A stretch of 23,496 nt of DNA from positions 1-23,496 of the forward strand of contig PCCJ01000012.1 of assembly GCA_002731665.1 (NCBI GenBank). Reading direction: 5' to 3'. A model generated the notes under the pieces. That model did no database searches and was not told where the DNA came from. It saw only the letters and a list, made by a program, of their open reading frames with translations. Position numbers and translations under genes: made by a program. This document shows, piece after piece, positions 3 through 23,454 of the stretch; the first letter of the stretch is position 1; the number at the start of each line of letters is the position of its first letter. This stretch comes from Actinomycetota bacterium. Its GTDB lineage: Bacteria > Actinomycetota > Acidimicrobiia > Acidimicrobiales > Poriferisodaliceae.

Positions 3-83
3 GATCATGACGATCACGATGATCATGACGATCACGATGATCATGACGATCACGATGATCATGACGATCATGATGATCATGAC
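3..83 (+). repeat. 18-bp tandem repeat encoding a His/Asp loop
   Basis: The unit GATCATGACGATCACGAT occurs three times exactly (3-20, 21-38, 39-56), a fourth time with one change (57-74, CAC to CAT), then as a half unit (75-83). The array probably continues left of the window. It encodes Asp-His-Asp-Asp-His-Asp in the metal-binding protein. A degenerate continuation with the same composition runs to about 110. Confidence 0.95.
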
Positions 84-677
84 AAAGATGATGCCGATCA
101 TGACGATCACGCTGGACACAACCACACCGGATCGGATCCACATTTTTTCACCGACCCATTACAAATGATTGAAGTTGTTGAGGGCCTCGTTGGATTTCTC
201 ACTGCAAACGTCGATGGTTTAGATTCAGACTTACTCAAGAGTAATGCTGACGGCTATGTCGCCCAGCTTCAGAAGCTTCACGCTGAGGTTGATGACCTCC
301 TCGGAGAAATCCCGAGCGATAAAAGAGTTTTGGTAACTAATCACGAAGTGTTCAGTTATTTTGCTAAGCGATACGACTTCAAAGTAGTCGCAACAGTGAT
401 TCCAAGCTCAAGCACCTTGGACAGTGCTAGCGCCAAAGGGTTGGCTGAACTTATCGAAGTAATTGAAAGCTATGACGTTCCTGCCATTTTCGCTGATGTA
501 GCATCTTCTGATGTGCTTGCTTCAACCCTCGCCGATGAGATAGGCGACATCAAAGTCATAGACCTTTACTCTGAGTCACTCGGATTAGAGGGATCTGGAG
601 CTGCGACCTACTTGGACATGATCCGAACTAATAGCAGACTTATCTCAGAAGCCTTGACTGACCATAATGATCAATGA
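3..677 (+). CDS. Metal (zinc-type) ABC transporter substrate-binding protein, C-terminal part, 5' end outside the window
   Basis: This is the extracytoplasmic metal-binding protein of a zinc/manganese-type ABC importer (ZnuA/AztC-like, cluster A-I). The frame is open from the left edge, so the start lies upstream; an internal ATG at 165 is not the real start. Positions 3-110 encode a loop of repeated Asp-His-Asp units, followed by Gly-His-Asn-His and then SDPHFFTDP, which matches the family's conserved 'DPHFWxDP' segment after the His-rich loop. Further on are an NHEVFSYF segment (compare NHxAFxYFA in ZnuA), a VIPSSSTLDSASAKGLAEL segment and a late metal-ligand region (ASSDVLASTLADEIG...DLYSESLG). 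In known relatives the His-rich loop collects Zn2+ for transfer to the buried site. The permease gene follows after 12 nt, so the two are almost certainly co-transcribed. Metal specificity (Zn over Mn) is inferred from the His-rich loop. Confidence 0.9.
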   Translation, partial: DHDDHDDHDDHDDHDDHDDHDDHDDHDKDDADHDDHAGHNHTGSDPHFFTDPLQMIEVVEGLVGFLTANVDGLDSDLLKSNADGYVAQLQKLHAEVDDLLGEIPSDKRVLVTNHEVFSYFAKRYDFKVVATVIPSSSTLDSASAKGLAELIEVIESYDVPAIFADVASSDVLASTLADEIGDIKVIDLYSESLGLEGSGAATYLDMIRTNSRLISEALTDHNDQ

Positions 678-689
678 TGTTGTGAAGTA

Positions 690-1535
690 ATGGACTTTGT
701 GACTGAGGCCTTCACACCTGCGTTCATGCAACGAGCGCTAGTTGGAAGCCTCCTCGCTGTTGTGGCAACCTCACTAGTAGGAACCTGGGTCGTTTTGCGT
801 GGCCTAGCATTCCTCGGTGACGCGCTGGCGCACGGGGTTATTCCCGGAGTTGCGTTGGCAATCTTGTGGGGGTTCGATCCCTTAATTGGAGCATTTGTAG
901 CTGCGCTCGTTATGAGTGGGCTTGTTACCTTTGTTTCGAATCGAACGGCTATGCGAGATGACACGGCGATTGGGTTACTATTCGTTGGAATGCTTTCGCT
1001 GGGCGTCGTGATTGTCTCACAGGCACAGTCATTTGCTACCGACGTCACAGCGATACTCTTTGGTGATTCATTAGGAGTTTCGCGCTCTGATATCAGGACT
1101 CAGCTGATCGCAGTCAGTTTCGTGGTTATTTGTATGGTGTTGCTGCATCGACCGTTTATTGCTTTGGCCTTCAACGAAGTTAAAGCTACAACTCTTGGGA
1201 TGCGACCCAAGTTAGCTCAAGCTGCGTTGCTGGCACTATTGGCTCTCAGTATTGTGACAAGCTTCCAAACAATAGGTACTCTCCTAGTGTTTGGACTCAT
1301 CGTCGCTCCTCCTGCTACCGCCACTCTATTAGTCAGTCGTGTTCCGGTTATCATGCTGGTGTCCATGTTGTTGGGGGCCCTGGCGGTGTTCGTAGGCCTA
1401 CTCTTAAGCTTTCATTACGGAACAGCTGGCGGGGCAACCGTCGCCGGTTTGTGCGTCTTAGAGTTTTTCTTGGTGTTGGCTTGGCGTTCTATAAAGGATA
1501 TGGCACGAGGGTTCGGTGAACGGGCTGCTAAGTAG
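690..1535 (+). CDS. Metal ABC transporter permease (ZnuB/AztB/MntB family)
   Basis: This is the integral membrane subunit of the metal importer whose binding protein ends 12 nt upstream. At 281 residues it has the usual family length. Hydrophobic segments span nearly the whole chain. Family signatures are visible: an early 'VVLRGLAFLGDALAHGVIPGVALA' stretch (compare 'R.LSFLGDALSHAVLPGVALA' in relatives), a DDTAIGLLFVGMLSLGVVI stretch and a late 'SFQTIGTLLVFGLIVAPPATA' stretch (compare 'G.LLV.ALLI.PAATA'). ATG at 690 is the first in-frame start after the previous stop and gives a complete N-terminus; the ribosome site before it is weak, consistent with translational coupling. No ATPase gene follows, so it must lie upstream of the binding protein or elsewhere. 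Confidence 0.93.
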   Translation: MDFVTEAFTPAFMQRALVGSLLAVVATSLVGTWVVLRGLAFLGDALAHGVIPGVALAILWGFDPLIGAFVAALVMSGLVTFVSNRTAMRDDTAIGLLFVGMLSLGVVIVSQAQSFATDVTAILFGDSLGVSRSDIRTQLIAVSFVVICMVLLHRPFIALAFNEVKATTLGMRPKLAQAALLALLALSIVTSFQTIGTLLVFGLIVAPPATATLLVSRVPVIMLVSMLLGALAVFVGLLLSFHYGTAGGATVAGLCVLEFFLVLAWRSIKDMARGFGERAAK

Positions 1536-7744: not shown

Positions 7745-7784
7745 CTCACTATGGTTGCCTGCTACTGCACGCAACCATAGTGAG
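7745..7784. repeat. Perfect 14-bp inverted repeat spanning the 3' end of the dehydratase gene
   Basis: CTCACTATGGTTGC (7745-7758) and GCAACCATAGTGAG (7771-7784) are exact reverse complements around a 12-nt loop. The loop contains the dehydratase stop codon (TAG on the minus strand, 7764-7762), so one arm is coding and the other is not. No T tract follows on either strand. It could end transcription from both sides or block a 3' exonuclease. Confidence 0.9.
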
Positions 7785-9471
7785 CTGATGACACGTGTCG
7801 TGAGTATCGTCGCAATACTGAACCCTGCGGAATCGTACTCGGCAATTGCTTTGGCTCGATTGTCATCATTCGTTTCTGCATCTCGCTGTCGTCGATCGCG
7901 ACATCAAGAGTCCGGTTAACGGGATCGATAATGATTGTGTCACCATCTTTCACTGCTGCTAGCGGACCGCCGTCAGCCGCCTCTGGGCAAATATGTCCGA
8001 TGAGGATCCCGTGGGAGACGCCACTGAAACGACCATCAGTGATGAGAGCGACTTCCTTGCCTAAACCGCGTCCTTGCAGCTCGATTGTGAGCATCACCAT
8101 TTCTGGCATACCCGGGCCACCCTTGGGGCCGACGTTACGCACCACAACCACGTCGCCGGGCTTAATAACTCCGGATTGAATCGCCGTCATTGCATCGGGC
8201 TCGTTTTCGAAAACTTTGGCGACCCCTCGAAACTCGCCTGCCTCGAGCGTCTTGCCACCAAGTTTTAATACACAACTCTCCGGCGCTAAGTTCCCGTGCA
8301 GGACCGTGATGTGGTTGTTCGGTTGAGCTGCTGGGCTCTGCACCGATTGCAACAGGTCTTGGTCCTGTAAATCAGCGAGCGAAGCTACGTCAGATAGGTT
8401 CTCAGCGACAGTTTTTCCAGTGACAGTCATAGCATCACCATGTAGGAAGCCGTTATTTAGGAGCTCTTTCATTACGACCGGCACTCCTCCGAGTTCGTGC
8501 AGGGTAACCATCGAGTATTGACCGTGCGGCTGAAGATTTGCAATGAGCGGCACCCGCTCGCCGATCTCCTGGATGCGATCGATGGTGAGAGCTACTTCTG
8601 CATCGCGAGCGATCGCTAGCAAATGCAGGTACATGTTGGTTGAGCCCCCCATAGCGTAGGCCGTGATGATGGCGTTCTCAAAGCCTTTCACATTCATAAT
8701 ATCTCGAGGTCGAATATCGTTTTGGATCAGGTTGTATAGAGCTTCGGCGGTCGCCTCAACCTGAGCCTTCACGTCATCGTGGATATCGCTTGCGGCGTCA
8801 TAGTCGGCTGGGTGCGACGCACCTCGCGGCAACATCATTCCCATTGCCTCGGTGATTGTGCTCATGGTGTTCGCTGTGAACATGGCACCGCAGGTACCAC
8901 TTCCGGGCATCACGTTCCGTTCAACCTCGTTGAATTCTTCTTGAGTGATCCGATTAGCTCGCATTGCTGCTCGTGCTTCGGCCCAGTCGAGAATAGTCAG
9001 GTTGTTACCTTTGGATGCCCATGGCTCAATGCTAACGCACCCGGGTGAGCTAGTTCCTGGGTAAATAACGAGTCCGAAGTCGTTAGTGCGTGCCAGGGGC
9101 ATCATTGCTGCCGCGCCCGTCTTATCGCAGCCTGAGATAACAACCATAGCTTCGCCATGATGTGCCCGATGCCCGATCTCGAACGAGTCGGCGATTATGT
9201 CTCGTGACACGAGGCTGTAGCTGGCGTTGGGTGAACCTTGAGTGAGTGCATCAGAGACTGCTGGAGCGCCAACGACTAACCCTTGTCCTCCGCGCGAAGA
9301 AATCGACTCCGAAAGTAGGTCTGATATGCGTTCGACTCTGTTGTTGCAGCGATGAGCATTTGTGTAGGCCCCCGCTACTGTAACGATTGTGTTTTTTGTG
9401 GCGATAGTCTCAGGCTCAAAGCCTGCCGCCCTCAACTCTAAGCTTGCCCGTTTCCAATGATTACCTGCCAT
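7762..9471 (-). CDS. IlvD/EDD family Fe-S dehydratase (dihydroxy-acid or sugar-acid dehydratase)
   Basis: The product is a 569-residue cytoplasmic enzyme that would remove water from a 2,3-dihydroxy acid to give a 2-keto acid. The three cysteines that hold the Fe-S cluster in IlvD relatives are present: C42 (AHRCNN), C115 (SGCDK) and C194 (GTCGAM). K117 fits the carbamylated Lys, and 'MFTANTM' is conserved. The C-terminal domain has 'GNLAPESCVLKLGG', 'VVVVRNVGPKGGPGMPEM', 'LITDGRFSGVSHGILIGHI' and ends in VSSAHYGCVQ, like the VSSAxxGA ending of relatives, so it is full length. The first about 50 residues differ from classical IlvD (AGAYTNAHRCN in place of the usual SWNxxxPCN), suggesting a side branch. 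It may serve branched-chain amino-acid synthesis or sugar-acid catabolism; no other ilv gene lies nearby. A TAGTAT -10 box sits 6 nt before the ATG. Confidence 0.88.
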   Translation of the reverse strand: MAGNHWKRASLELRAAGFEPETIATKNTIVTVAGAYTNAHRCNNRVERISDLLSESISSRGGQGLVVGAPAVSDALTQGSPNASYSLVSRDIIADSFEIGHRAHHGEAMVVISGCDKTGAAAMMPLARTNDFGLVIYPGTSSPGCVSIEPWASKGNNLTILDWAEARAAMRANRITQEEFNEVERNVMPGSGTCGAMFTANTMSTITEAMGMMLPRGASHPADYDAASDIHDDVKAQVEATAEALYNLIQNDIRPRDIMNVKGFENAIITAYAMGGSTNMYLHLLAIARDAEVALTIDRIQEIGERVPLIANLQPHGQYSMVTLHELGGVPVVMKELLNNGFLHGDAMTVTGKTVAENLSDVASLADLQDQDLLQSVQSPAAQPNNHITVLHGNLAPESCVLKLGGKTLEAGEFRGVAKVFENEPDAMTAIQSGVIKPGDVVVVRNVGPKGGPGMPEMVMLTIELQGRGLGKEVALITDGRFSGVSHGILIGHICPEAADGGPLAAVKDGDTIIIDPVNRTLDVAIDDSEMQKRMMTIEPKQLPSTIPQGSVLRRYSRHVSSAHYGCVQ

Positions 9472-9784: not shown

Positions 9785-10813
9785 TCAAAAATCAGTTCTC
9801 CAACTATCAGCTGCCAGGATTTGGGAGCACTCCGGAATGACCTCGTGTCCGACACGGGTGATCTGTTCATGAATTTCTTCAACCTCGCCAGAAGGGCAAT
9901 CCATCTTCGCGACGACTAGGGAATAGCCTGCGGTTGCAAATTTTTCTAAATCTTCAAGTACTTGCTGAGCAGTTCCAGTGCATATTTTCCTAGGCGTTTG
10001 GTGGGCGAGGGAATCATCGCTGTCAGTGACTCTCATAGTCGTGGCAGCCATCATGATGAAGGTCGAGGGGTCTCTTCCAGCTTTGTCGAGGTCGGCTTTG
10101 ACAATGGCCTGGAGATCAGCGTGACGGTTCGGATCAGCGAAGGGGTCAAGAAACACTGGATAAAAACCGTCGCAATAAGCTGCCGCTCGACGCGCTCCGA
10201 GCGGAGACATCCCTCCATAGATAATCGGTGGGTGAGGCTTCTGTGAAGGCTTGGGATCCATAGAAACGTCCGAAAATGAATAGTAGTCACCGTCAAAAGA
10301 AACAAAATCGTCTTGCCAACTTCGCTTGTAAATTTCGATGCATTCAACTGTTCGTTTCCCGCGCTCAGCAAATGGAATACCAAGCGCATCAAACTCTTCT
10401 TCCATCCAGCCAGCCCCAACTCCTAGCAGAAGACGGCCTCCAGACAGCACGTCCACCGTGGCAAACTGGCGGGCGTCGCTTAAGGGCGCCCGATAGGGCG
10501 CAACGAGGACACTAGTACCGAGCTTAATTCTGGTCGTGGAAGAGGCAACTGCTCCCATAACAACTGCACCATCAAGCATCTCGTGTCGCGGGGAATAAGA
10601 GCGGGCCCCTGACTTGTTAGCGATATGGGCGCTATTTGTTTCTGTAGGCATGCACACATGGTCAGGAAACCATATGGAATGAAAGCCGTTACGTTCAGCA
10701 GTTTGTGCAATCGCAACAGGCTCAAGATTTTCTCCGGGAACGCTTCTGGTGTAGTTGTTGTCATTGTCTCGGTAACCGACACCATGGGTGTTTGCATATA
10801 AGCCAATTTGCAT
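9785..10813 (-). CDS. Luciferase-like (LLM class) flavin/F420-dependent oxidoreductase
   Basis: The product is a 342-residue TIM-barrel enzyme of the bacterial luciferase-like family, using reduced FMN or F420 to oxidise or reduce an organic substrate. Motifs are 'GFHSIWFPDHVCMP' (WFPDH at 48-52), 'TTRIKLGTSVLVAPYRAPL', 'VLSGGRLLLGVGAGWMEEEFDALGIPFAERGKR' (GVGAGW at 131-136), 'PHPPIIYGGMSPLGARRAAAYCDGFYP' and a C-terminal 'FATAGYSLVVAKMDCP'. These fit the 'probable F420-dependent oxidoreductase' subfamilies common in actinobacteria. The frame stays open 44 codons further upstream, but AAGGAG (complement of 10822-10827) lies 8 nt before the ATG at 10813, and family proteins begin at this MQIGLY-type strand. 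It is divergent from the lyase operon. Substrate and cofactor cannot be read from sequence. Confidence 0.88.
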   Translation of the reverse strand: MQIGLYANTHGVGYRDNDNNYTRSVPGENLEPVAIAQTAERNGFHSIWFPDHVCMPTETNSAHIANKSGARSYSPRHEMLDGAVVMGAVASSTTRIKLGTSVLVAPYRAPLSDARQFATVDVLSGGRLLLGVGAGWMEEEFDALGIPFAERGKRTVECIEIYKRSWQDDFVSFDGDYYSFSDVSMDPKPSQKPHPPIIYGGMSPLGARRAAAYCDGFYPVFLDPFADPNRHADLQAIVKADLDKAGRDPSTFIMMAATTMRVTDSDDSLAHQTPRKICTGTAQQVLEDLEKFATAGYSLVVAKMDCPSGEVEEIHEQITRVGHEVIPECSQILAADSWRTDF

Positions 10814-10821
10814 ACCACAGA

Positions 10822-10827
10822 CTCCTT
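10822..10827 (-). promoter_or_regulatory. Ribosome binding site that fixes the luciferase-like gene start
   Basis: AAGGAG on the minus strand, 8 nt before the ATG at 10813, favours that start over an ATG 44 codons upstream. Confidence 0.8.
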
Positions 10828-11056
10828 CTAATAGTGCCGTAATCATGGCAGACCTATCTCTGTTATGTAGTTTGGATCCGATTAAGAAAGAGTTAATTGT
10901 CACAGCCGTTGTTGATCTACGGTTACCTTGGTAGCCGGACAACAAGAGTGCGACTTGAGACTAAACAAAGTCGGGCCGTTCTAGGATAGTGCGTTGCATG
11001 ACTACATAGGTATTGCAGAGCTTCTGGCTTTGAGGCTTTCGTCTCTATGGTTGCTT

Positions 11057-11214: not shown

Positions 11215-12195
11215 ATGGTCGGGCGGCTTGAAGCCAAAGAGTGGGCGAAAGAGCATCTAAAAGGATTGTTTTCAAGTCCGTCGGCGCCTTTAACGCAAGA
11301 TTTTAAACTGGACGACGCAGGCGTCATCACAAATGTCGAGCGCGTAATCTCCGTTGGTGCCAGTGGAGTGGGTTTTGGTTTCCTTGATGCGTGGGGCCTC
11401 ACCATAGCGCAGCGAAAACATGTTATGGACCTGATCGCAAACGCGACCGGTGATCGTGCGATGTGCATCTTCTATACCGCTGATCACAGCGTGGCTGAGA
11501 CAATTGCTCTCAGCCACCATGCAAAGGAAATCGGAGCGGAAGCAATCATCTTATGGGTGCCCTACGAATGGGCGACGTCGCAGGACTTGATGCACGACTA
11601 CGTCGAATACGTCGCTGGGAAAGTTGACATCGCGATCATTGCTTTCAACACCCCCCATTCTGGCATGACAATGACGCACGAAACCATGATGCGTATAGCG
11701 AAAATTCCGAATGTATGTGGCATCAAGAACGCGATCAAGGATCCGCAGCACACCATCCGGGCAATTGAGATGTTCGGCAACGAGATCGTGCTGTCATACC
11801 CGTTTGAGGAGCAACTACTAGAAATGACTACCGAGCACGGTCAGCAGGTTCTACTGGGATCAACCAGCGTCTATCTAATGCAAAGCCCCGAGAGACAGCC
11901 AATTTTGGACTACCTGCGTCTTGCACAACAAGGTGACATGGCGGGGGCCATCGACATCCATGACGAACTGGCGCCTCTCCGAAAAACGTGGAGCAAAATT
12001 TACGCCGGTTTGTGGAACGAGAATAAAGCCGTTCACCCCATAGGCCTGATCAAATATTGGATGGACATATTAGGTATGGCTGGTGGGCCGCTGGGACCAC
12101 CAATGCAGGAGCTCGATGAAGCAGCCAAGGTAGCATTCCGCGAACAGCTAGATGCAGCAGGCTGGGAGCGACTGCTTTTCCCGAGCCGCTTTTGA
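11215..12195 (+). CDS. DapA/NanA-fold lyase-like protein with altered catalytic relay
   Basis: This is a 326-residue TIM-barrel protein of the dihydrodipicolinate synthase/N-acetylneuraminate lyase family, which makes or breaks C-C bonds through a Schiff base with a keto acid. The Schiff-base lysine is present: K171 in 'VCGIKNAIKDP'. By-eye alignment to E. coli DapA suggests that the catalytic relay is lost. The GTTGE loop (Thr44) reads GASGV (48-52), Tyr107 of PYYN corresponds to Glu118 (PYEW), and Tyr133 of YNxP is Phe144 (FNTP). The Arg of the SRTG carboxylate pocket is also absent. It is therefore unlikely to be DapA and probably carries out another aldolase, hydratase or decarboxylating reaction. 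GAGGAG (11201-11206) lies 8 nt before the ATG. It is first in an operon with an SDR (27-nt gap) and an alpha/beta hydrolase. Confidence 0.85.
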   Translation: MVGRLEAKEWAKEHLKGLFSSPSAPLTQDFKLDDAGVITNVERVISVGASGVGFGFLDAWGLTIAQRKHVMDLIANATGDRAMCIFYTADHSVAETIALSHHAKEIGAEAIILWVPYEWATSQDLMHDYVEYVAGKVDIAIIAFNTPHSGMTMTHETMMRIAKIPNVCGIKNAIKDPQHTIRAIEMFGNEIVLSYPFEEQLLEMTTEHGQQVLLGSTSVYLMQSPERQPILDYLRLAQQGDMAGAIDIHDELAPLRKTWSKIYAGLWNENKAVHPIGLIKYWMDILGMAGGPLGPPMQELDEAAKVAFREQLDAAGWERLLFPSRF

Positions 12196-12222: not shown

Positions 12223-12978
12223 ATGACAATGCTAAAAGATAAGACGGTTATCGTGACGGGCGCAGCGGGGGGCATCGGTCGAGCTATCGCTGAGGAAGCC
12301 GGACATGCGGGTGCCCGATTGGCGCTAGTGGATGCTGACGCGACGCGTCTGGAACAGACGACTATGGAAATCCGAGCCAATGGTGTAGCCGTTCTACCCT
12401 TGGTGGTGGATATGACCGACCGCTTATTATGGCAAGGGAGTATTGATGACATCGCCACCGAGTTTGGCAGTATCGATGCGATGGTAAACAACGCCATGTG
12501 GGTCAAATACGAGCCGATGGCTGAGGTTCGAGAAGACGTTTATCGGCGCCAGATGGCGATCGGTCTTGACGCGGTCTATTGGGGCGTGCAGGCGGTAACT
12601 CCGCACATGATCGCGCAGGGATCCGGCAGTATCGTCAACATGACATCGCCTGCATCAGTCCATGGGATTCCCAATGGGTCAGTCTATGCAGCGATCAAAG
12701 GAGCGATCTCAGCGCTAACGCGACAGTGCGCTGTTGAACTAGGACAAAAGGGTATTCGTGTAAACGCCGTTGCTCCCGGTCCGATGCCAACGCCTGGCAC
12801 CATGAGCGTCGTAGACGAGCAAGGGTGGGAAAAACGCTTAGCGACAAGTCCGTTAGGTCGCCTATCCACCCCAGAAGGTGTGGCTAAGGTCGTTGTGTTT
12901 CTGGCATCAGATGCGGCAGATTGCGTTAATGGCGATGTACTATTTGCGGATGGAGGCCGCTCGATCTCGAAGATGTGA
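12223..12978 (+). CDS. Short-chain dehydrogenase/reductase (SDR)
   Basis: The product is a 251-residue cytoplasmic NAD(P)-dependent oxidoreductase of the classical SDR family. It has the cofactor motif TGAAGGIG (12-19), an Asp after the second strand (ALVDAD) that favours NAD(H), a VVDMTD adenine-binding segment, NNAM in place of the usual NNAG, the catalytic Ser in 'IVNMTSPAS', Tyr-x3-Lys in 'SVYAAIKGA' and the C-terminal 'NGDVLFADGG'. ATG at 12223 follows GAGGAA; a second ATG two codons later (12229) is possible. It lies 27 nt after the lyase gene and overlaps the hydrolase gene by four bases, so the three are one operon. It probably oxidises an alcohol or reduces a ketone of the same pathway; the substrate is unknown. 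Confidence 0.92.
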   Translation: MTMLKDKTVIVTGAAGGIGRAIAEEAGHAGARLALVDADATRLEQTTMEIRANGVAVLPLVVDMTDRLLWQGSIDDIATEFGSIDAMVNNAMWVKYEPMAEVREDVYRRQMAIGLDAVYWGVQAVTPHMIAQGSGSIVNMTSPASVHGIPNGSVYAAIKGAISALTRQCAVELGQKGIRVNAVAPGPMPTPGTMSVVDEQGWEKRLATSPLGRLSTPEGVAKVVVFLASDAADCVNGDVLFADGGRSISKM

Positions 12979-13874
12979 TCCCCGTGGCATATTCTCGAGA
13001 GGGCCTTATTGTGCGCGAAAATGTGGAATTTAATGCGCTGGACGGCACGGTGCTTTCTGGATTCTTCTATACGCCGGAGACTGGCAGAGGACCATTTCCA
13101 GCAATCGTTCTCAGTCATGGTTTCGGCGCAGTCAAAGAAATGGCGCTGGGCCTCTACGTCGATATTTTCTGCGATGCCGGATTTGCTTGCCTTGCTTATG
13201 ACCATCGGAACACTGGATCCAGTGGTGGGCCGCTTCGTGGCGAGATAAACCCGTGGGAGCAGATATCTGATATGCGCGATGCGATCACCTATATAGGTAA
13301 TCGCGAAGAGGTGAACACTGATCAGATTGGTTTGTGGGGGACCAGCTTCGCCGGCGGCCATAGTCTGGTAGTGGCTGCAACCGACCGGAGAGTCAAATGT
13401 GTTGTTTCAGTGGTACCGACAATTAGTGGGCACCAAAACACGATCCGGGCCCTAACGACTAATGGCTACGCTGATTTCATTCGGGATGCAAATGAAGAGC
13501 GCAGCGCTCGCCAACGGGGTGAAGAACCGCGGATGATTCCAATTTCGTCGGAAGGTGATGAAAGCTATGAATGGAGTAAAATCGCAGGCGCTGGAACGAC
13601 GTATGTTAATTCTTGTACCTTGCTGAGCAGATCATTTCGCGATTCCTATGAGCCGGGCAGTTATATCGCGACTGTTTCACCTACTCCATTGTTGATGGTA
13701 TTGGGAACACATGACACGAAATGCCTAACTGATCTGCAGCTCGAGGCGTACTCGGCGGCGCATGAGCCGAAGCGACTAAAGATGTTCCCTGGCGGTCACT
13801 ATGATCCGTATACCACCGAACTGGAATCTATCGCGTCTGCGTCTAGCGACTGGTTCGAAATGCATTTGAAATAG
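12975..13874 (+). CDS. Alpha/beta hydrolase (dienelactone hydrolase/esterase-like)
   Basis: The product is a 299-residue alpha/beta-hydrolase. After an N-terminal beta region (VRENVEFNALDGTVLSGFFYTP), an oxyanion-type HGFG (48-51) is followed by 'YDHRNTGSSGG' (75-85) and the nucleophile elbow GTSFAGG with S124. D247 (LGTHDTKC) and H275 (GGHYDP) complete a plausible Ser-Asp-His triad. The pattern resembles dienelactone-hydrolase-like and X-Pro dipeptidyl-peptidase-like esterases. There is no signal peptide, so it should be cytoplasmic. The GTG start at 12975 overlaps the SDR stop (GTGA), indicating translational coupling; a GTG at 12984 is the alternative. Its place in the lyase-SDR operon suggests cleavage of an ester, lactone or C-C bond in the same pathway. 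Confidence 0.88.
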   Translation: MIPVAYSREGLIVRENVEFNALDGTVLSGFFYTPETGRGPFPAIVLSHGFGAVKEMALGLYVDIFCDAGFACLAYDHRNTGSSGGPLRGEINPWEQISDMRDAITYIGNREEVNTDQIGLWGTSFAGGHSLVVAATDRRVKCVVSVVPTISGHQNTIRALTTNGYADFIRDANEERSARQRGEEPRMIPISSEGDESYEWSKIAGAGTTYVNSCTLLSRSFRDSYEPGSYIATVSPTPLLMVLGTHDTKCLTDLQLEAYSAAHEPKRLKMFPGGHYDPYTTELESIASASSDWFEMHLK

Positions 13875-13996: not shown

Positions 13997-14746
13997 TTAA
14001 ATAGCTAGATAGCCGCCATCTACGGGTAGCTCGATGCCTGTGATGTAAGAGGCCTCATCACTCGCCAAGAACAGGTTTGCATAGGCCACTTCTTCGACTC
14101 GCCCTTCGCGTTGGGCCGGAATGGCAGCGATCCTGATACGGCGCGCCTCTGGGTCAGCGCTCATCATCGCATCCTTCATGGGCGGCATGATGCCGGGATG
14201 CACCGAATTCACGCGTATGCCGTCCGCTGCGAATTGTACGGCGGCAGACTTTGTTGCGAGGCGCACTGCACCTTTGGCGGCGTTATAGCCCATATGAACA
14301 TAAGCCTGTCCCACGAACGCTGAGATTGAAGAAATGTTTACGATTGACCCTCGTCCGGCTTTCTGCATGATCGGGACGACGGCCTGCATGCTCAGGAACA
14401 CACCCTTAGCGTAGATATTCATCTGCTCATCCCAGGTGTTGGTGTTCAGTTGGTCGGGGTGGCTGCCGCTAATGCCGGCGCTGTTGACCAATATGTCGAT
14501 CTGGCCGTAGATAGAAATTGTTTCGGAAACAGCGTTCCTCCAGTCAACCTCACTTGAGACATCTAATTTTAAGAAATGAGCCTGGCCGCCGGTGTCAGTA
14601 ATTTCTTCAGCCACCGCCGAACCCTGATCAATTGCCAGATCCGTAACGACTACTTTGGCGCCTTCACTAGCGAAAAGTTGAGCTGTAGAAGCTCCCATGC
14701 CAGATGCAGCTCCGGTAATAATCGCTACCTTGTCTTTCAAACGCAT
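13997..14746 (-). CDS. Short-chain dehydrogenase/reductase (SDR), 3-alpha/20-beta-HSD-like
   Basis: The product is a 249-residue classical SDR. It has TGAASGMG (11-18), 'VVVTDLA' with Asp at the end of the second strand (NAD preference), 'LDVSSEVDW' (adenine pocket), NSAG (88-91), N110, catalytic Ser in ISSIS (138-142), Y154 and K158 in YNAAKGA, 'IRVNSVHPGIM' and 'ITGIELPVDGG'. This set is typical of cyclopentanol/3-alpha-hydroxysteroid-dehydrogenase-like SDRs, which act on cyclic or secondary alcohols; the actual substrate is unknown. The ATG at 14746 is preceded only by a weak purine-rich stretch. The gene is convergent with the hydrolase and divergent from the thioesterase, across a gap rich in palindromes. 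It is a paralogue of the SDR at 12223 but clearly diverged. Confidence 0.92.
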   Translation of the reverse strand: MRLKDKVAIITGAASGMGASTAQLFASEGAKVVVTDLAIDQGSAVAEEITDTGGQAHFLKLDVSSEVDWRNAVSETISIYGQIDILVNSAGISGSHPDQLNTNTWDEQMNIYAKGVFLSMQAVVPIMQKAGRGSIVNISSISAFVGQAYVHMGYNAAKGAVRLATKSAAVQFAADGIRVNSVHPGIMPPMKDAMMSADPEARRIRIAAIPAQREGRVEEVAYANLFLASDEASYITGIELPVDGGYLAI

Positions 14747-15000: not shown

Positions 15001-15855
15001 GTGACCGGAAACTTTGCAGCGGTGATGGATTTGAGCACCAAAGGCGAGGATGTTTATGTTGGGCCACCGTCGCCAGATCGCGGTTTGCGAACTTATGGTG
15101 GGCAACTCCTGGCGCAATCGTTAGGTGCTGCGCAGCGGACGGTTTCAAGCGGTCAAGCTGTGCACTCAACCCACTCGTACTTTCTAAAAGCCGGTGATGC
15201 AGCTAAGCCCATCGAACTCAAAGTCGAACGGCTTCGAGACGGGCGCTCGTTCAGTCAACGTCAGGTGGTGGCGCGACAAGGAGAGGTTGATGTGTTCAGG
15301 AGTCTGATTTCGTTTCACGTTCCCGAGACAGGCCTTGAGTGGGAAGAGTCGATCACTATCGGTGTTGCCGCGCCGACAAACGAAGAGCCCTACACCGATT
15401 ACAGTGATGTGATTGAAATGGTCCTACCATTGGAAGAACAGCCGTGGCCGGGCCGAGACCGCCCTATGGACGTCAGCTATATCAACCCTCCAACGGCACC
15501 GGCAGGTCAACCAGTGACTGAACCCCAACTTATGTGGATGCGAGTTCACGGCGAACTAGGAGACGATCAAGCTCTAAATGACTCTGGGCTTGCCTATCTT
15601 TCTGACCTTGGGATGGAACCGGTAATTGTGTTGCCCCACGGCTACCGTTGGAAAGACAGTCGACTTACGATGGCCAGTCTTGATCACGCCATGTGGTTTC
15701 ACCGACCGGCCAGAGTTGACGACTGGATCTACTACGATCAACGAGTCGAGTCTACGTCGCGCGGTCGAGGTTTGGCGAGCGGCCGGTTCTACGATCGTGA
15801 CGGGCACCTTCTTGCCACGTGTATGCAAGAAGGTCTGATGCGATGGAGCGGCTAA
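15001..15855 (+). CDS. Acyl-CoA thioesterase II (TesB type)
   Basis: The product is a 284-residue double-hotdog thioesterase that hydrolyses acyl-CoA to free acid and CoA in the cytoplasm. The first hotdog has 'VYVGPPSPDRGLRTYGGQLLAQSLGAAQRTV' and 'VHSTHSYFLKAGDAAKPIELKVERLRDGRSFSQRQVVARQ', both strongly conserved in TesB. The second has 'MASLDHAMWFHRPARVDDWIYYDQRVESTSRGRGLASGRFYDRDGHLLATCMQEGLMR'. The catalytic set of E. coli TesB (Asp204, Thr228, Gln278) corresponds to D228, S251/T252 and Q276. Length matches the family. The GTG start sits directly behind a TTGACA/TACTGT promoter, and no ribosome site is present. Neighbouring SDR and PhyH genes suggest a role in releasing or recycling a CoA ester in a degradation pathway, which is inference. 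Confidence 0.94.
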   Translation: MTGNFAAVMDLSTKGEDVYVGPPSPDRGLRTYGGQLLAQSLGAAQRTVSSGQAVHSTHSYFLKAGDAAKPIELKVERLRDGRSFSQRQVVARQGEVDVFRSLISFHVPETGLEWEESITIGVAAPTNEEPYTDYSDVIEMVLPLEEQPWPGRDRPMDVSYINPPTAPAGQPVTEPQLMWMRVHGELGDDQALNDSGLAYLSDLGMEPVIVLPHGYRWKDSRLTMASLDHAMWFHRPARVDDWIYYDQRVESTSRGRGLASGRFYDRDGHLLATCMQEGLMRWSG

Positions 15856-16234: not shown

Positions 16235-17476
16235 CTAGCCGCCAATTTCATGGTCCCCTCCGATGCCCAAAGGTGCGCTTTCTCCGCCCGAGCGAGCATC
16301 GGCGACGACCTTCCGCAAAGTGAAAGGTGCCTGCAGGTCTTGCTGCGACGAGTTAGGTCCGAGTTCGCCAACGCGAAGATACTCGCCGCGATCAGCTGCT
16401 AGACGAAAGTCGCGTAGAGCGCCCGCCCGTTCACCGATTAATCCCCGAGCACCGAAGCCATGACCCTCATTGGTTTGACTGCCGGTAGTGGCTTGGAATC
16501 CTATGCGTTGAAGCAGCTTTTGACTTGCTCGTTCCAGTACCTCAGGCCGGACCGAGAGCATCCAGTTCTCTTGCTGACGCTTCCAGTTCGTCTGCATCGA
16601 GTTGAGCATCACGATCCGGGGTTGATCAGTGTGGTTAATGCCGGTTCCGTGAAGGATTCGCCCATCGGTCAGTGTGATAGATCCAGCTGGGGCTTCAAGA
16701 TTAATGGCGGGTGGTAACTTGCCGACAGGTCGGCGTTCGCGCATTGCTTTCGAAAGCACATCGTGACTTCCTGGAATGAGAAGAGTTCCGCCGTTGTTCT
16801 GGTCAATGTGGCTGAGAGCTGTGAGGGTGTTGACAAGTGTTGGCTTCAACGCTTCAGCCGAGTCAGTCTGGTCTTGATGTAGAGCTTGCGGCACCCCTCC
16901 TTTTAGCGAGATAGCTGCGATGAGTGACGTACAGATCCAATCCGCTCCGAGGGCCTCAGTCATAAGCTGCTCGATGAGTGGGCCCCCTTGGACAAAGCTC
17001 GGGTCCTGCTCAATAAGCCCTTCGAAGCATCGACCTTTGTTGATGCAGCAGTTAATGTTCTGGCCGCTTGGCGTCTTCTGGGCGATACGAGCTCTTCGCT
17101 CGCCCTCAGCCTGTTCAAGAACGCGTTTGCGCATCTCTTCGACCTGGTCAGCGGCGATGGCGTTTTCGATGATGCAGTAGCCCCACTTGAGAAGATCTGA
17201 ACGCAACTGGCTAATGTCTTTGGTGGGAGAGGGAAGTCCCTTGTCTTTCCAGTACGGGTGCTTCGAACTGGTGGTGGTGTCATAGTACGAGCCGGGTTTG
17301 AACTCCCACTTACCCCACTCCGAACCGCGCTGCGGTGGAACGAAGTAGATCTCAGGATTGTTTTCGAGGGCTGACTTCATCGGCTCTTTCGCCATGTCGT
17401 CTTTGTACATGAGAGCTTCAGGTGGTGACTTCGCTTCGATATGAGCGGGGTCGAACTCCGTTGGAATTGTTGTCAT
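16235..17476 (-). CDS. PhyH family Fe(II)/2-oxoglutarate dioxygenase
   Basis: The product is a 413-residue phytanoyl-CoA dioxygenase-like enzyme that would hydroxylate or otherwise oxidise an organic substrate using O2 and 2-oxoglutarate. The iron-binding facial triad is visible: H200 and D202 in 'ALHQDQ' and H276 in 'GRILHGTGINHT', with R287 (QPRIVM) placed to bind 2-oxoglutarate. 'LIPGSHD' (233-239) is another PhyH hallmark, and 'LLKWGYCIIENAI' (95-107) is the usual N-terminal helix/strand. An N-terminal extension of about 90 residues and a C-terminal extension after the core make it longer than the typical 270-300. A CTCC complement (GGAG, 17487-17490) lies 10 nt before the ATG. It is divergent from the pirin gene and convergent with the thioesterase gene. 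Substrate unknown. Confidence 0.88.
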   Translation of the reverse strand: MTTIPTEFDPAHIEAKSPPEALMYKDDMAKEPMKSALENNPEIYFVPPQRGSEWGKWEFKPGSYYDTTTSSKHPYWKDKGLPSPTKDISQLRSDLLKWGYCIIENAIAADQVEEMRKRVLEQAEGERRARIAQKTPSGQNINCCINKGRCFEGLIEQDPSFVQGGPLIEQLMTEALGADWICTSLIAAISLKGGVPQALHQDQTDSAEALKPTLVNTLTALSHIDQNNGGTLLIPGSHDVLSKAMRERRPVGKLPPAINLEAPAGSITLTDGRILHGTGINHTDQPRIVMLNSMQTNWKRQQENWMLSVRPEVLERASQKLLQRIGFQATTGSQTNEGHGFGARGLIGERAGALRDFRLAADRGEYLRVGELGPNSSQQDLQAPFTLRKVVADARSGGESAPLGIGGDHEIGG

Positions 17477-22010: not shown

Positions 22011-22281
22011 CTAAATATCCTAGGACCTCTATGAGAACGAATAACCGAAGCTACCTGGTATTTGACCAAGTTTCCTTTCGTAGCCGCCTCGCAAAAGTAC
22101 AATTTATTTTTGTCGTGGAACCTAAATCTGTGCAGCGTTAATCCTAGGAATCCAAATGACATTTCGTGAGTTAACGATTAGTCGCCTGAGCAGAGCGGGT
22201 AAACATGTATTGCTAGTGGAATCAATTTCGGAGGTGGCCTAGGCTTATTTGAAGTGGGGATTAAAACGTCTAGGGGGCGAG

Positions 22282-23454
22282 ATGGCACTTACTGAACTCT
22301 CGGCAGATGAACACGCGGCTGCAATGACGGAGTATGTGGTCGAACGCAATGTGGCGGCATTGGCACTTGGGAGCCGAGGGCGGGTACGTTATGGCGCCGA
22401 TGGTAATCTCCACTCGGATATCCTCGCCGAGTTTGAGGCGAACGGATTCTACATTTTTGAAGGTGTTGTCGACAGCGAAGAAGTCGCTGAGTTGCGCGCT
22501 GCCGTCGAAGACACTATCCAACGCGCTCCATCTTCCCCCGATTCCATAACCGATTCGCAAGGGCGCCCAGCGCTTGGGCTTGACTACCCAATAAGGCCGT
22601 ACATTTTTATTAAGCCTTTATCAGACCCTTGGGGTGGGACTGAACTGTTAAGTGGTCGGCATCCAGTTAAGTTCACTGAACCGACGCCTGATGACGATGC
22701 TCCTGACTATGTGGTTCATCTGATTTTGCAGATGTGCACCTCCATGCCTGCAGCTCTTCGTCTCTATGGACATCCTGAGCTTTTAAGCATTGCTGAGGCC
22801 ATAAACGGGCCGGATTTTGTTCCATATAACGACTCTATTTTCGTAAAGAAGCCCGGAGTAGGCGGGTCGGTAGCATGGCATCAAGATGGAGCAACACATT
22901 GGGATAACCCTGAGTGGTATCCAGGCATTCATGGTTTCAACTTTCAGGTACAACTGTACGAGACGACTCCTGCTAATGCGTTGTGGATCGTGCCCGGCTC
23001 GCATAAAGAAGGGCGAATTGATATTCGAGAGCGCGTAGCAGCCAATGAAACAGGTGAGCGTCTGCCTGATGCCATTCCGCTTGTGACCAATGCTGGTGAT
23101 GTGACAATTGTAAATCGGCAGATGTTGCACGGCTCATTTGCGAATACTTCCCCGGACCCGCGTGTGTCGATTACTTTTGGTTTTTACCCTCAATCGTCGG
23201 TGCTAGGGGTTTCTGGTGGACTTAACATCACCCTTGACGATAATAAGAGCGGTAAGAAAGTCTACGACGCGGAACATATCCGACGTCGCTCAGCAGTTGT
23301 TCAGGTGGCTGTAGACGCGCGACAGCAGGCTCGACCTGATGAACGCCGTTACATTTATGCACCCTTTGTTGGAGCAGAAAATAATTATCGCTATGGGCCT
23401 GAGACAATAGCGAACGTTCTTCGTGATTACACGCGCTATGACATCGCCATTTAA
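22282..23454 (+). CDS. PhyH family Fe(II)/2-oxoglutarate dioxygenase (second copy)
   Basis: This is a phytanoyl-CoA dioxygenase-like enzyme of 390 residues from the ATG at 22282. The iron triad is present: H200 and D202 in 'VAWHQDGATHW' and H283 in 'RQMLHGSFAN', with R294 in 'PDPRVSITFG' as the likely 2-oxoglutarate ligand. 'LWIVPGSHKEGRI' and the early 'FEANGFYIFEGVVDSEEVAELRAAVED' are classic PhyH blocks. The frame extends 11 codons upstream to a TTG (22249) that lies 11 nt behind a strong GGAGGTGG (22230-22237); ATG 22282 has only AGGGGG 4 nt upstream. I prefer the ATG, but the TTG start is a real alternative. It shares the fold but little sequence with the PhyH at 16235. Marine bacteria often carry many such paralogues for degrading varied organic matter; the substrate here is unknown. 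Confidence 0.88.
   Translation: MALTELSADEHAAAMTEYVVERNVAALALGSRGRVRYGADGNLHSDILAEFEANGFYIFEGVVDSEEVAELRAAVEDTIQRAPSSPDSITDSQGRPALGLDYPIRPYIFIKPLSDPWGGTELLSGRHPVKFTEPTPDDDAPDYVVHLILQMCTSMPAALRLYGHPELLSIAEAINGPDFVPYNDSIFVKKPGVGGSVAWHQDGATHWDNPEWYPGIHGFNFQVQLYETTPANALWIVPGSHKEGRIDIRERVAANETGERLPDAIPLVTNAGDVTIVNRQMLHGSFANTSPDPRVSITFGFYPQSSVLGVSGGLNITLDDNKSGKKVYDAEHIRRRSAVVQVAVDARQQARPDERRYIYAPFVGAENNYRYGPETIANVLRDYTRYDIAI

Follow-up and report, generated by a model that had tools for sequence, protein, structure and literature searches.

The closest described relatives of the protein analysed here are enzymes of the DHDPS superfamily, such as E. coli DapA, and KdaD. The GXXGE loop binds the carboxylate of pyruvate via two backbone amides (PMC3188589) and shows high conservation across the NAL and DHDPS subfamilies (PMC5380162), Tyr106 and Tyr107 contribute to the active site of the opposing monomer (PMC11201819), and activity is lost in the Y133F variant of DapA and the Y168F variant of human HOGA, while human HOGA Y140F behaves like wild type (PMC3188589). 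KdaD, as described in PMC13398020, carries a catalytic Glu174 where other members have the Tyr, together with a further catalytic residue, E201, and acts on a 2-keto acid though it has neither GXXGE nor the Tyr; residues of the CnKdaD model in the same source include N52-F53-S54-E55, Q144-D145, and K172-I173-E174.

In the window, the 23,496-nucleotide stretch of actinomycetotal DNA analysed in full (GCA_002731665.1, contig PCCJ01000012.1), we found a gene whose product keeps the fold and lysine of these enzymes but lacks the Thr and Tyr relay residues of DapA (Table 1). The 326-aa ORF is real, and its product matches PF00701 at 89.5 bits (cut-off, 22.1). The predicted model is a confident DapA-type TIM barrel (pLDDT 93) with K171 on predicted strand 167-172, which is strand beta-6 of the barrel, and the predicted strands place E118, H148, K171, and E198 where DapA barrel positions would have them. 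The dN/dS ratio of the gene is about 0.07 against its counterparts in loci L005 and L007, a rough value since dS exceeds 1 there, and 0.18 to 0.25 against L006; the ORF is under purifying selection.

Alignment to DapA agrees with much of what the first-pass annotation had read from this gene. The Schiff-base lysine that it recognised in GIKNAIKD, K171, aligns with K161 of E. coli DapA and is kept in 120/120 homologs, and the carboxylate-binding Arg that it reported missing is indeed absent, the Arg138 loop of DapA being represented here by NTP-HSG, with one residue fewer. Its assignments for the proton relay stood at Tyr107 (E118) and Tyr133 (F144) but not at Thr44, which it had given as Ala/Ser and which is either Gly55 or deleted, MAFFT and HHalign disagreeing. 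Both programs agree that Thr45 corresponds to Phe56 and Glu47 to Asp58. The stretch GASGVGFG (48-55), proposed there as the replacement of the GTTGE loop, aligns instead with the DapA stretch preceding GTTGE; the counterpart of the loop itself (DapA 43-47) is F54-G55-F56-L57-D58, according to MAFFT and to HHalign alignments with the intermediate clade and with a KdaD-type protein. Both methods show two residues missing near the end of strand beta-2, at the carboxylate loop. In addition, E198 aligns with Asp188 of DapA. The Tyr107 position varies across the superfamily (the references have Y, W, L, or H there), and since it does so and HOGA Y140F behaves like wild type, the Tyr107-to-Glu change alone proves little. 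E118 would point into the pocket. The earlier observation is mostly right, with one loop misplaced, and its interpretation is partly supported.

Table 1. Features of the window, with the evidence for each
Feature	Position	Strand	Evidence or remarks
Edge-open ORF starting with a long Asp-Asp-His-type repeat (DHDDHDD...)	3..677	+	Repeat looks like a metal-binding linker
Membrane-protein-like ORF (from its sequence)	690..1535		Follows the repeat ORF
IlvD/Edd-family paralog	7762..9471	-	518.6 bits; IlvD cut-off, 618.15
F420-type LLM oxidoreductase, divergent upstream	9785..10945	-	TIGR03619 over cut-off
DHDPS-family protein, 326 aa, clade A of the PYEW subfamily	11215..12195	+	ORF, Pfam, homologs, fold, tree
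F54-G-F-L-D58, counterpart of the GTTGE (GXXGE) carboxylate loop	11374..11388	+	MAFFT, HHalign
D90-H91-S92, after strand beta-3	11482..11490	+	120/120, 119/120, and 120/120 homologs
E118, Tyr107 position	11566..11568	+	120/120 homologs
F144, Tyr133 position	11644..11646	+	Phe in 58/58 close homologs
H148 of NTPHSG, in the shortened counterpart of the DapA Arg138 loop	11656..11658	+	120/120 homologs
K171, Schiff-base lysine position	11725..11727	+	120/120 homologs
E198, Asp188 position	11806..11808	+	120/120 homologs
SDR dehydrogenase, directly downstream of the 326-aa gene	12223..12978	+	Orthologs directly downstream in L005, L006, L007
Alpha/beta hydrolase	12975..13874	+	Linked in L005 and L006 too
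Second SDR, convergent	13997..14746	-	Found in L006; in L005 no such gene stands between hydrolase and thioesterase
TesB-like acyl-CoA thioesterase	15001..15855	+	218.8 bits, under the tesB cut-off of 292.85; linked in L005 and L006
PhyH-family dioxygenase-like gene (PF05721)	16235..17476	-	No NCBIfam match at E <= 1e-30
PhyH-family dioxygenase-like gene (PF05721)	22249..23454	+	No NCBIfam match at E <= 1e-30

A phmmer search found 149 homologs, and in the alignment of the 120 listed, K171, E118, W119, H148, E198, D90, S92, N145, G150, and C168 are invariant, with H91 kept in all but one. Position 144 divides the set: it is Phe in all 58 homologs at 70 to 94% identity (P0001-P0058, fragments among them) and Tyr in 61 of the 62 at 47 to 55% (P0059-P0120, the exception being Val), a division made by identity and not by tree. 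P0053 and P0056, at 70%, are Paracoccaceae proteins. A phylogenetic tree of 48 rows, including 20 of the aligned homologs, places the window protein inside clade A (100/100), which is nested in clade B, its sisters being P0059 and P0060 (97/94); together they form the PYEW subfamily, supported at 100/99, which joins an intermediate clade, I, at 93/96, a node not starred by the program. On this tree E118 and H148 require a single change each (22/22 rows of A and B, 0/26 others), and Tyr versus not-Tyr at position 144 requires three. The simplest reading is that the Tyr was lost at the base of clade A, because B surrounds A; with Phe or Trp in 16/16 rows of clade I, it may also have been regained in B. 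The family tree that the first-pass annotation had called for thus shows no grouping with a characterised subfamily: the seven reference types compared all lack the E118/H148 pocket and all fall outside the PYEW subfamily. These alignments indicate that the DapA-fold variant is no one-off but a conserved environmental bacterial family with fixed Glu and His, and a decayed single copy of DapA is ruled out by that conservation and by purifying selection. Since clades A and B differ in Phe versus Tyr at 144 but have E118, H148, and E198 in common, they offer a natural experiment on whether imine chemistry can proceed in the DapA fold without the tyrosine.

The family is patchy across genomes. With the genome at the centre of each comparison counted, matches at E <= 1e-100 occur in 2 of 39 genomes of the family of G003, 1 of 39 of the family of G004, 4 of 74 of the family of G007, and 1 of 369 of the class of G007; at E <= 1e-50 they occur in 9 of 247 genomes of the class of G003 (G003 and eight with intermediate-clade scores) and 2 of 150 of the order of G010 (G010 and one with an intermediate score). 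The homologs are named either "dihydrodipicolinate synthase family protein" or "4-hydroxy-tetrahydrodipicolinate synthase" in databases, and the latter name is contradicted by their residues. No PYEW member was recognised among the matches listed in searches of solved structures (60 each) and of folds (50 each), and no description of the subfamily was recognised in the open PMC literature, covered mostly as titles and abstract starts.

The neighbourhood of clade A has a conserved core. An SDR gene lies directly downstream in 3/3 testable loci, with 84% identity in L005, 97% in L006, and 79% in L007 (162 residues before the contig end), L004 ending too soon, and the hydrolase and TesB-like thioesterase both follow in the two testable loci, L005 and L006. 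The second SDR probably lies outside this core, since it is present in L006 but not in L005. Upstream, only L004 and L006, which come from relatives at 93 to 94% identity, show linkage to the LLM and IlvD/Edd genes; L005 is cut, and the window's LLM and IlvD genes are absent within 8 kb upstream in L007, whose own LLM gene is 27% identical. The IlvD/Edd paralog scores 310.7 bits against the L-arabinonate dehydratase model (cut-off, 882) and 517.7 in G003, again under the IlvD cut-off; in G002 a 70% ortholog sits on a different contig, and the match in G004 reaches just 30%. A role of this paralog as the branched-chain amino acid enzyme was rejected, as a further IlvD scoring above the cut-off is present in 4/4 relatives' genomes (in G001 the match covers positions 2-489 of 543). 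Of the suggestion that the co-operonic SDR and hydrolase genes give a way to the substrate, the linkage was borne out, for the SDR in other lineages and for the hydrolase in two further loci, but neither gene names the substrate.

The sister genes of clade B keep different company. We examined nine loci (L008-L016) from six genomes, L008, L009, and L013 sharing one genome and L011 and L014 another. Genes were called as longest ORFs and then by codon-position GC; in several high-GC loci the longest-ORF calls picked frames that were antisense or fused, and some of these entered the Pfam searches. In 6/9 loci (L008, L009, L011, L012, L014, and L016) an MmgE/PrpD gene is found within 500 bp in the same orientation, with the L012 call based on tblastn (64% identity to the L009 copy) and not on Pfam; in L011 the nearest copy (485 bp) is 27% identical to the one in L009 or L016, and a 71% copy lies at 1.9 kb. 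The nearest copy in L010 is 3.7 kb off on the other strand, and L013 and L015 have none in the locus DNA examined. A TctC receptor gene is found within 1.2 kb in 7/9 loci (L008 and L010-L015, on the opposite strand in L010), and an HIBDH-type gene within 3 kb in 4/9 (L009, L011, L014, and L016). MmgE/PrpD matches number 54 in G008, 71 in G006, 87 in G007, and at least 115 in G005, where 115 of 286 candidates were scored, compared with 0 or 1 in four Acidimicrobiales genomes and 5 in G010. This abundance in the beta-proteobacterial genomes G005-G008, which underlie L008-L014, is an unusual paralog expansion. (The L010 record is titled Chitinophaga pinensis, yet its genome, G006, falls in the family of beta-proteobacterial G007, making the title doubtful.) Because these genomes are so rich in matches, one would fall within 3.5 kb by chance in about 9 to 14% of cases or more, while for G010 (Actinomadura, L016), whose 7.9 Mb contain 5, the chance is 0.4%. 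MmgE/PrpD is not a partner common to both clades, since clade A genomes hold one match (G004) or none (G001-G003). The conserved neighbours are possible assay partners: the SDR for clade A, and MmgE/PrpD with TctC for the sister clade.

The reading we prefer, which we regard as evenly poised between right and wrong, is that the PYEW protein is a class I (Schiff-base) lyase or hydro-lyase of an uncharacterised DHDPS-superfamily branch, with relocated Glu/His acid-base groups and a role in peripheral catabolism. The co-encoded SDR would oxidise a hydroxyl to the ketone needed by the lyase (HIBDH-type dehydrogenases are found near some of the sister genes), and K171, judging from its invariance, would form an imine with that carbonyl. 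Proton transfer would then fall to E118, H148, and E198 in place of Thr44, Tyr107', and Tyr133 of DapA, with E118 supplied by the neighbouring subunit because it is homologous to Tyr107. A C-C or C-O bond would break, and the hydrolase and thioesterase of the window would handle the product. Since Y133F and Y168F lose activity, it is reasonable to expect a changed mechanism in the Phe144 clade; E118 and H148 may have another role in the sister set, where Tyr133 is kept (61/62). Of the interpretation in the first-pass annotation, relay loss combined with a new, invariant Glu is borne out and extends family-wide. Its non-pyruvate partner fares less well: loss of GXXGE and Arg138 makes it possible that the substrate carboxylate is absent or held differently, with a non-pyruvate donor, but loss of GXXGE and the Tyr does not compel such a donor, because KdaD without both handles a 2-keto acid and the sister set retains the Tyr. 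A more ambitious form of the proposal is tentative and, on balance, improbable: a new catalytic solution in which the K171 imine works with a neighbouring-subunit Glu and a beta-5-loop His, without tyrosine relay or carboxylate loop, on a non-pyruvate ketone or aldehyde donor made by the SDR.

The unchanged fold and lysine would also suit an ordinary pyruvate-releasing aldolase, in which the short beta-2 loop holds the carboxylate by main-chain amides and other residues compensate for Phe144. According to PMC3188589 and PMC11201819, the DapA/HOGA carboxylate is held largely by main-chain amides, KdaD is described as binding its 2-keto acid without GXXGE, and Tyr133 is retained in the sister set. 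Against this, the loop carries a two-residue deletion and has lost both threonines, Arg138 is missing, the DapA equivalog score is 69.4 against 206.15, and the Y133F (DapA) and Y168F (HOGA) enzymes are reported to lose activity (PMC3188589), so we consider such an aldolase unlikely. Much further from an active enzyme would be a non-catalytic or regulatory relic of a DapA-type protein. The relay tyrosine is gone in all 58 close homologs, but invariance of the lysine and of many polar residues, purifying selection, and conserved linkage to enzyme genes make a relic very hard to believe.

The neighbourhood lends itself to another scheme, a Weimberg-type cassette in which a lactone made by the SDR is opened by the hydrolase, the resulting acid is dehydrated by the IlvD/Edd paralog, and the window protein, as a KdaD-like dehydratase of a 2-keto-3-deoxy sugar acid, removes the second water. 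The required IlvD/Edd paralog, SDRs, and hydrolase are all nearby, a separate IlvD above the cut-off is present in each of the four relatives' genomes, and the KdaD type shares with our proteins the absence of GXXGE and Tyr133, the P-xSG loop, the Glu at E198, and, in the sister clade, the F/Y-S-E loop. However, the catalytic E174 of KdaD corresponds to Ala173 and its Gln144 to Phe in the window protein, KdaD joins the larger clade at just 70/26, and the paralog resembles IlvD, at 518.6 bits, more closely than L-arabinonate dehydratase, at 310.7. Its linkage is moreover confined to the 93-94% relatives, the G002 ortholog being on another contig and the G004 match reaching 30%. We therefore judge this cassette rather improbable and keep the Schiff-base lyase or hydro-lyase with relocated acid-base groups as the working assignment.

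Comparison with known and database relatives places the window protein among enzymes that share its fold and lysine but differ in the pocket. The nearest relatives outside the PYEW subfamily are the intermediate clade (the "dihydrodipicolinate synthase family" rows of L029-L054, about 30% identity), which resembles it in the C-terminal region and, like clade A, lacks the Tyr at 144 (Phe or Trp in 16/16), but keeps GXXGE in 14/16 rows and has neither E118 nor H148; we found no tested function for this clade. Genes of this clade lie near an annotated aspartate dehydrogenase in 4/4 cases (the alphaproteobacterial plasmids L052-L054, plus L051) and lie near a 3-hydroxyanthranilate 3,4-dioxygenase annotation in three of these four, with ABC, TRAP, or TTT transporters; from its annotations this looks like an undescribed catabolic cluster, and a literature search found no paper on the gene combination. 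Other DHDPS-family branches in the beta genomes (L035, L036, and L038-L041) have no GXXGE (for example, LHIAES or WPHHKAES) and have Tyr at the Tyr133 position; GXXGE loss is not rare among uncharacterised members.

Each described enzyme differs in its own way. In E. coli DapA, Thr44, Thr45, Tyr107, Tyr133, Arg138, and GXXGE all stand where the window protein is changed, and HTPA synthase identity was rejected on the relay and Arg138 and on TIGR00674 (69.4 bits; cut-off, 206.15). E. coli NanA and YagE retain GXXGE and Tyr133 and have no E118/H148; N-acetylneuraminate lyase was rejected because FGFLD and Phe144 replace GXXGE and Tyr137 and the nanA models score 52.6 and 43 bits against 281 and 382. 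The hydratase-aldolase of the pDTG1 naphthalene plasmid, which we take to be NahE, and its Rhodococcus opacus B4 relative, presumably NarC, share the Glu at E198 but retain GXXGE and Tyr133 and have Trp at 118; they split from the other 46 rows at 100/100, excluding that identity. KdgD (5-dehydro-4-deoxyglucarate dehydratase) retains GXXGE and Tyr133 with Leu at 118, and TIGR03249 gives 61.5 bits against 373.95, so it too was rejected. For KdaD, the comparison is with one row, L057:7595-8512, near an L-arabinonate dehydratase gene on a Pseudosulfitobacter plasmid and taken as KdaD-type because its LANYSE, VQDAP, and FKIE motifs and gene context fit the KdaD residues listed in PMC13398020 and its expected surroundings. 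HHalign matches it to the window protein with probability 98.5, and in the tree this single row, on a long branch, joins A, B, and I at the low support given above. It has neither E118 nor H148 and differs at A173 and Phe144, yet it shares the Schiff-base lysine, the lack of GXXGE and (with clade A) of Tyr133, the short P-xSG loop, a Glu matching catalytic E201 of CnKdaD that aligns with E198, and a loop read as GFSE in most of clade B. Thus, by residue comparison, the PYEW set of replacements has no precedent among the seven reference types, while the loss of the relay itself has one in KdaD, which is the nearest functional parallel.
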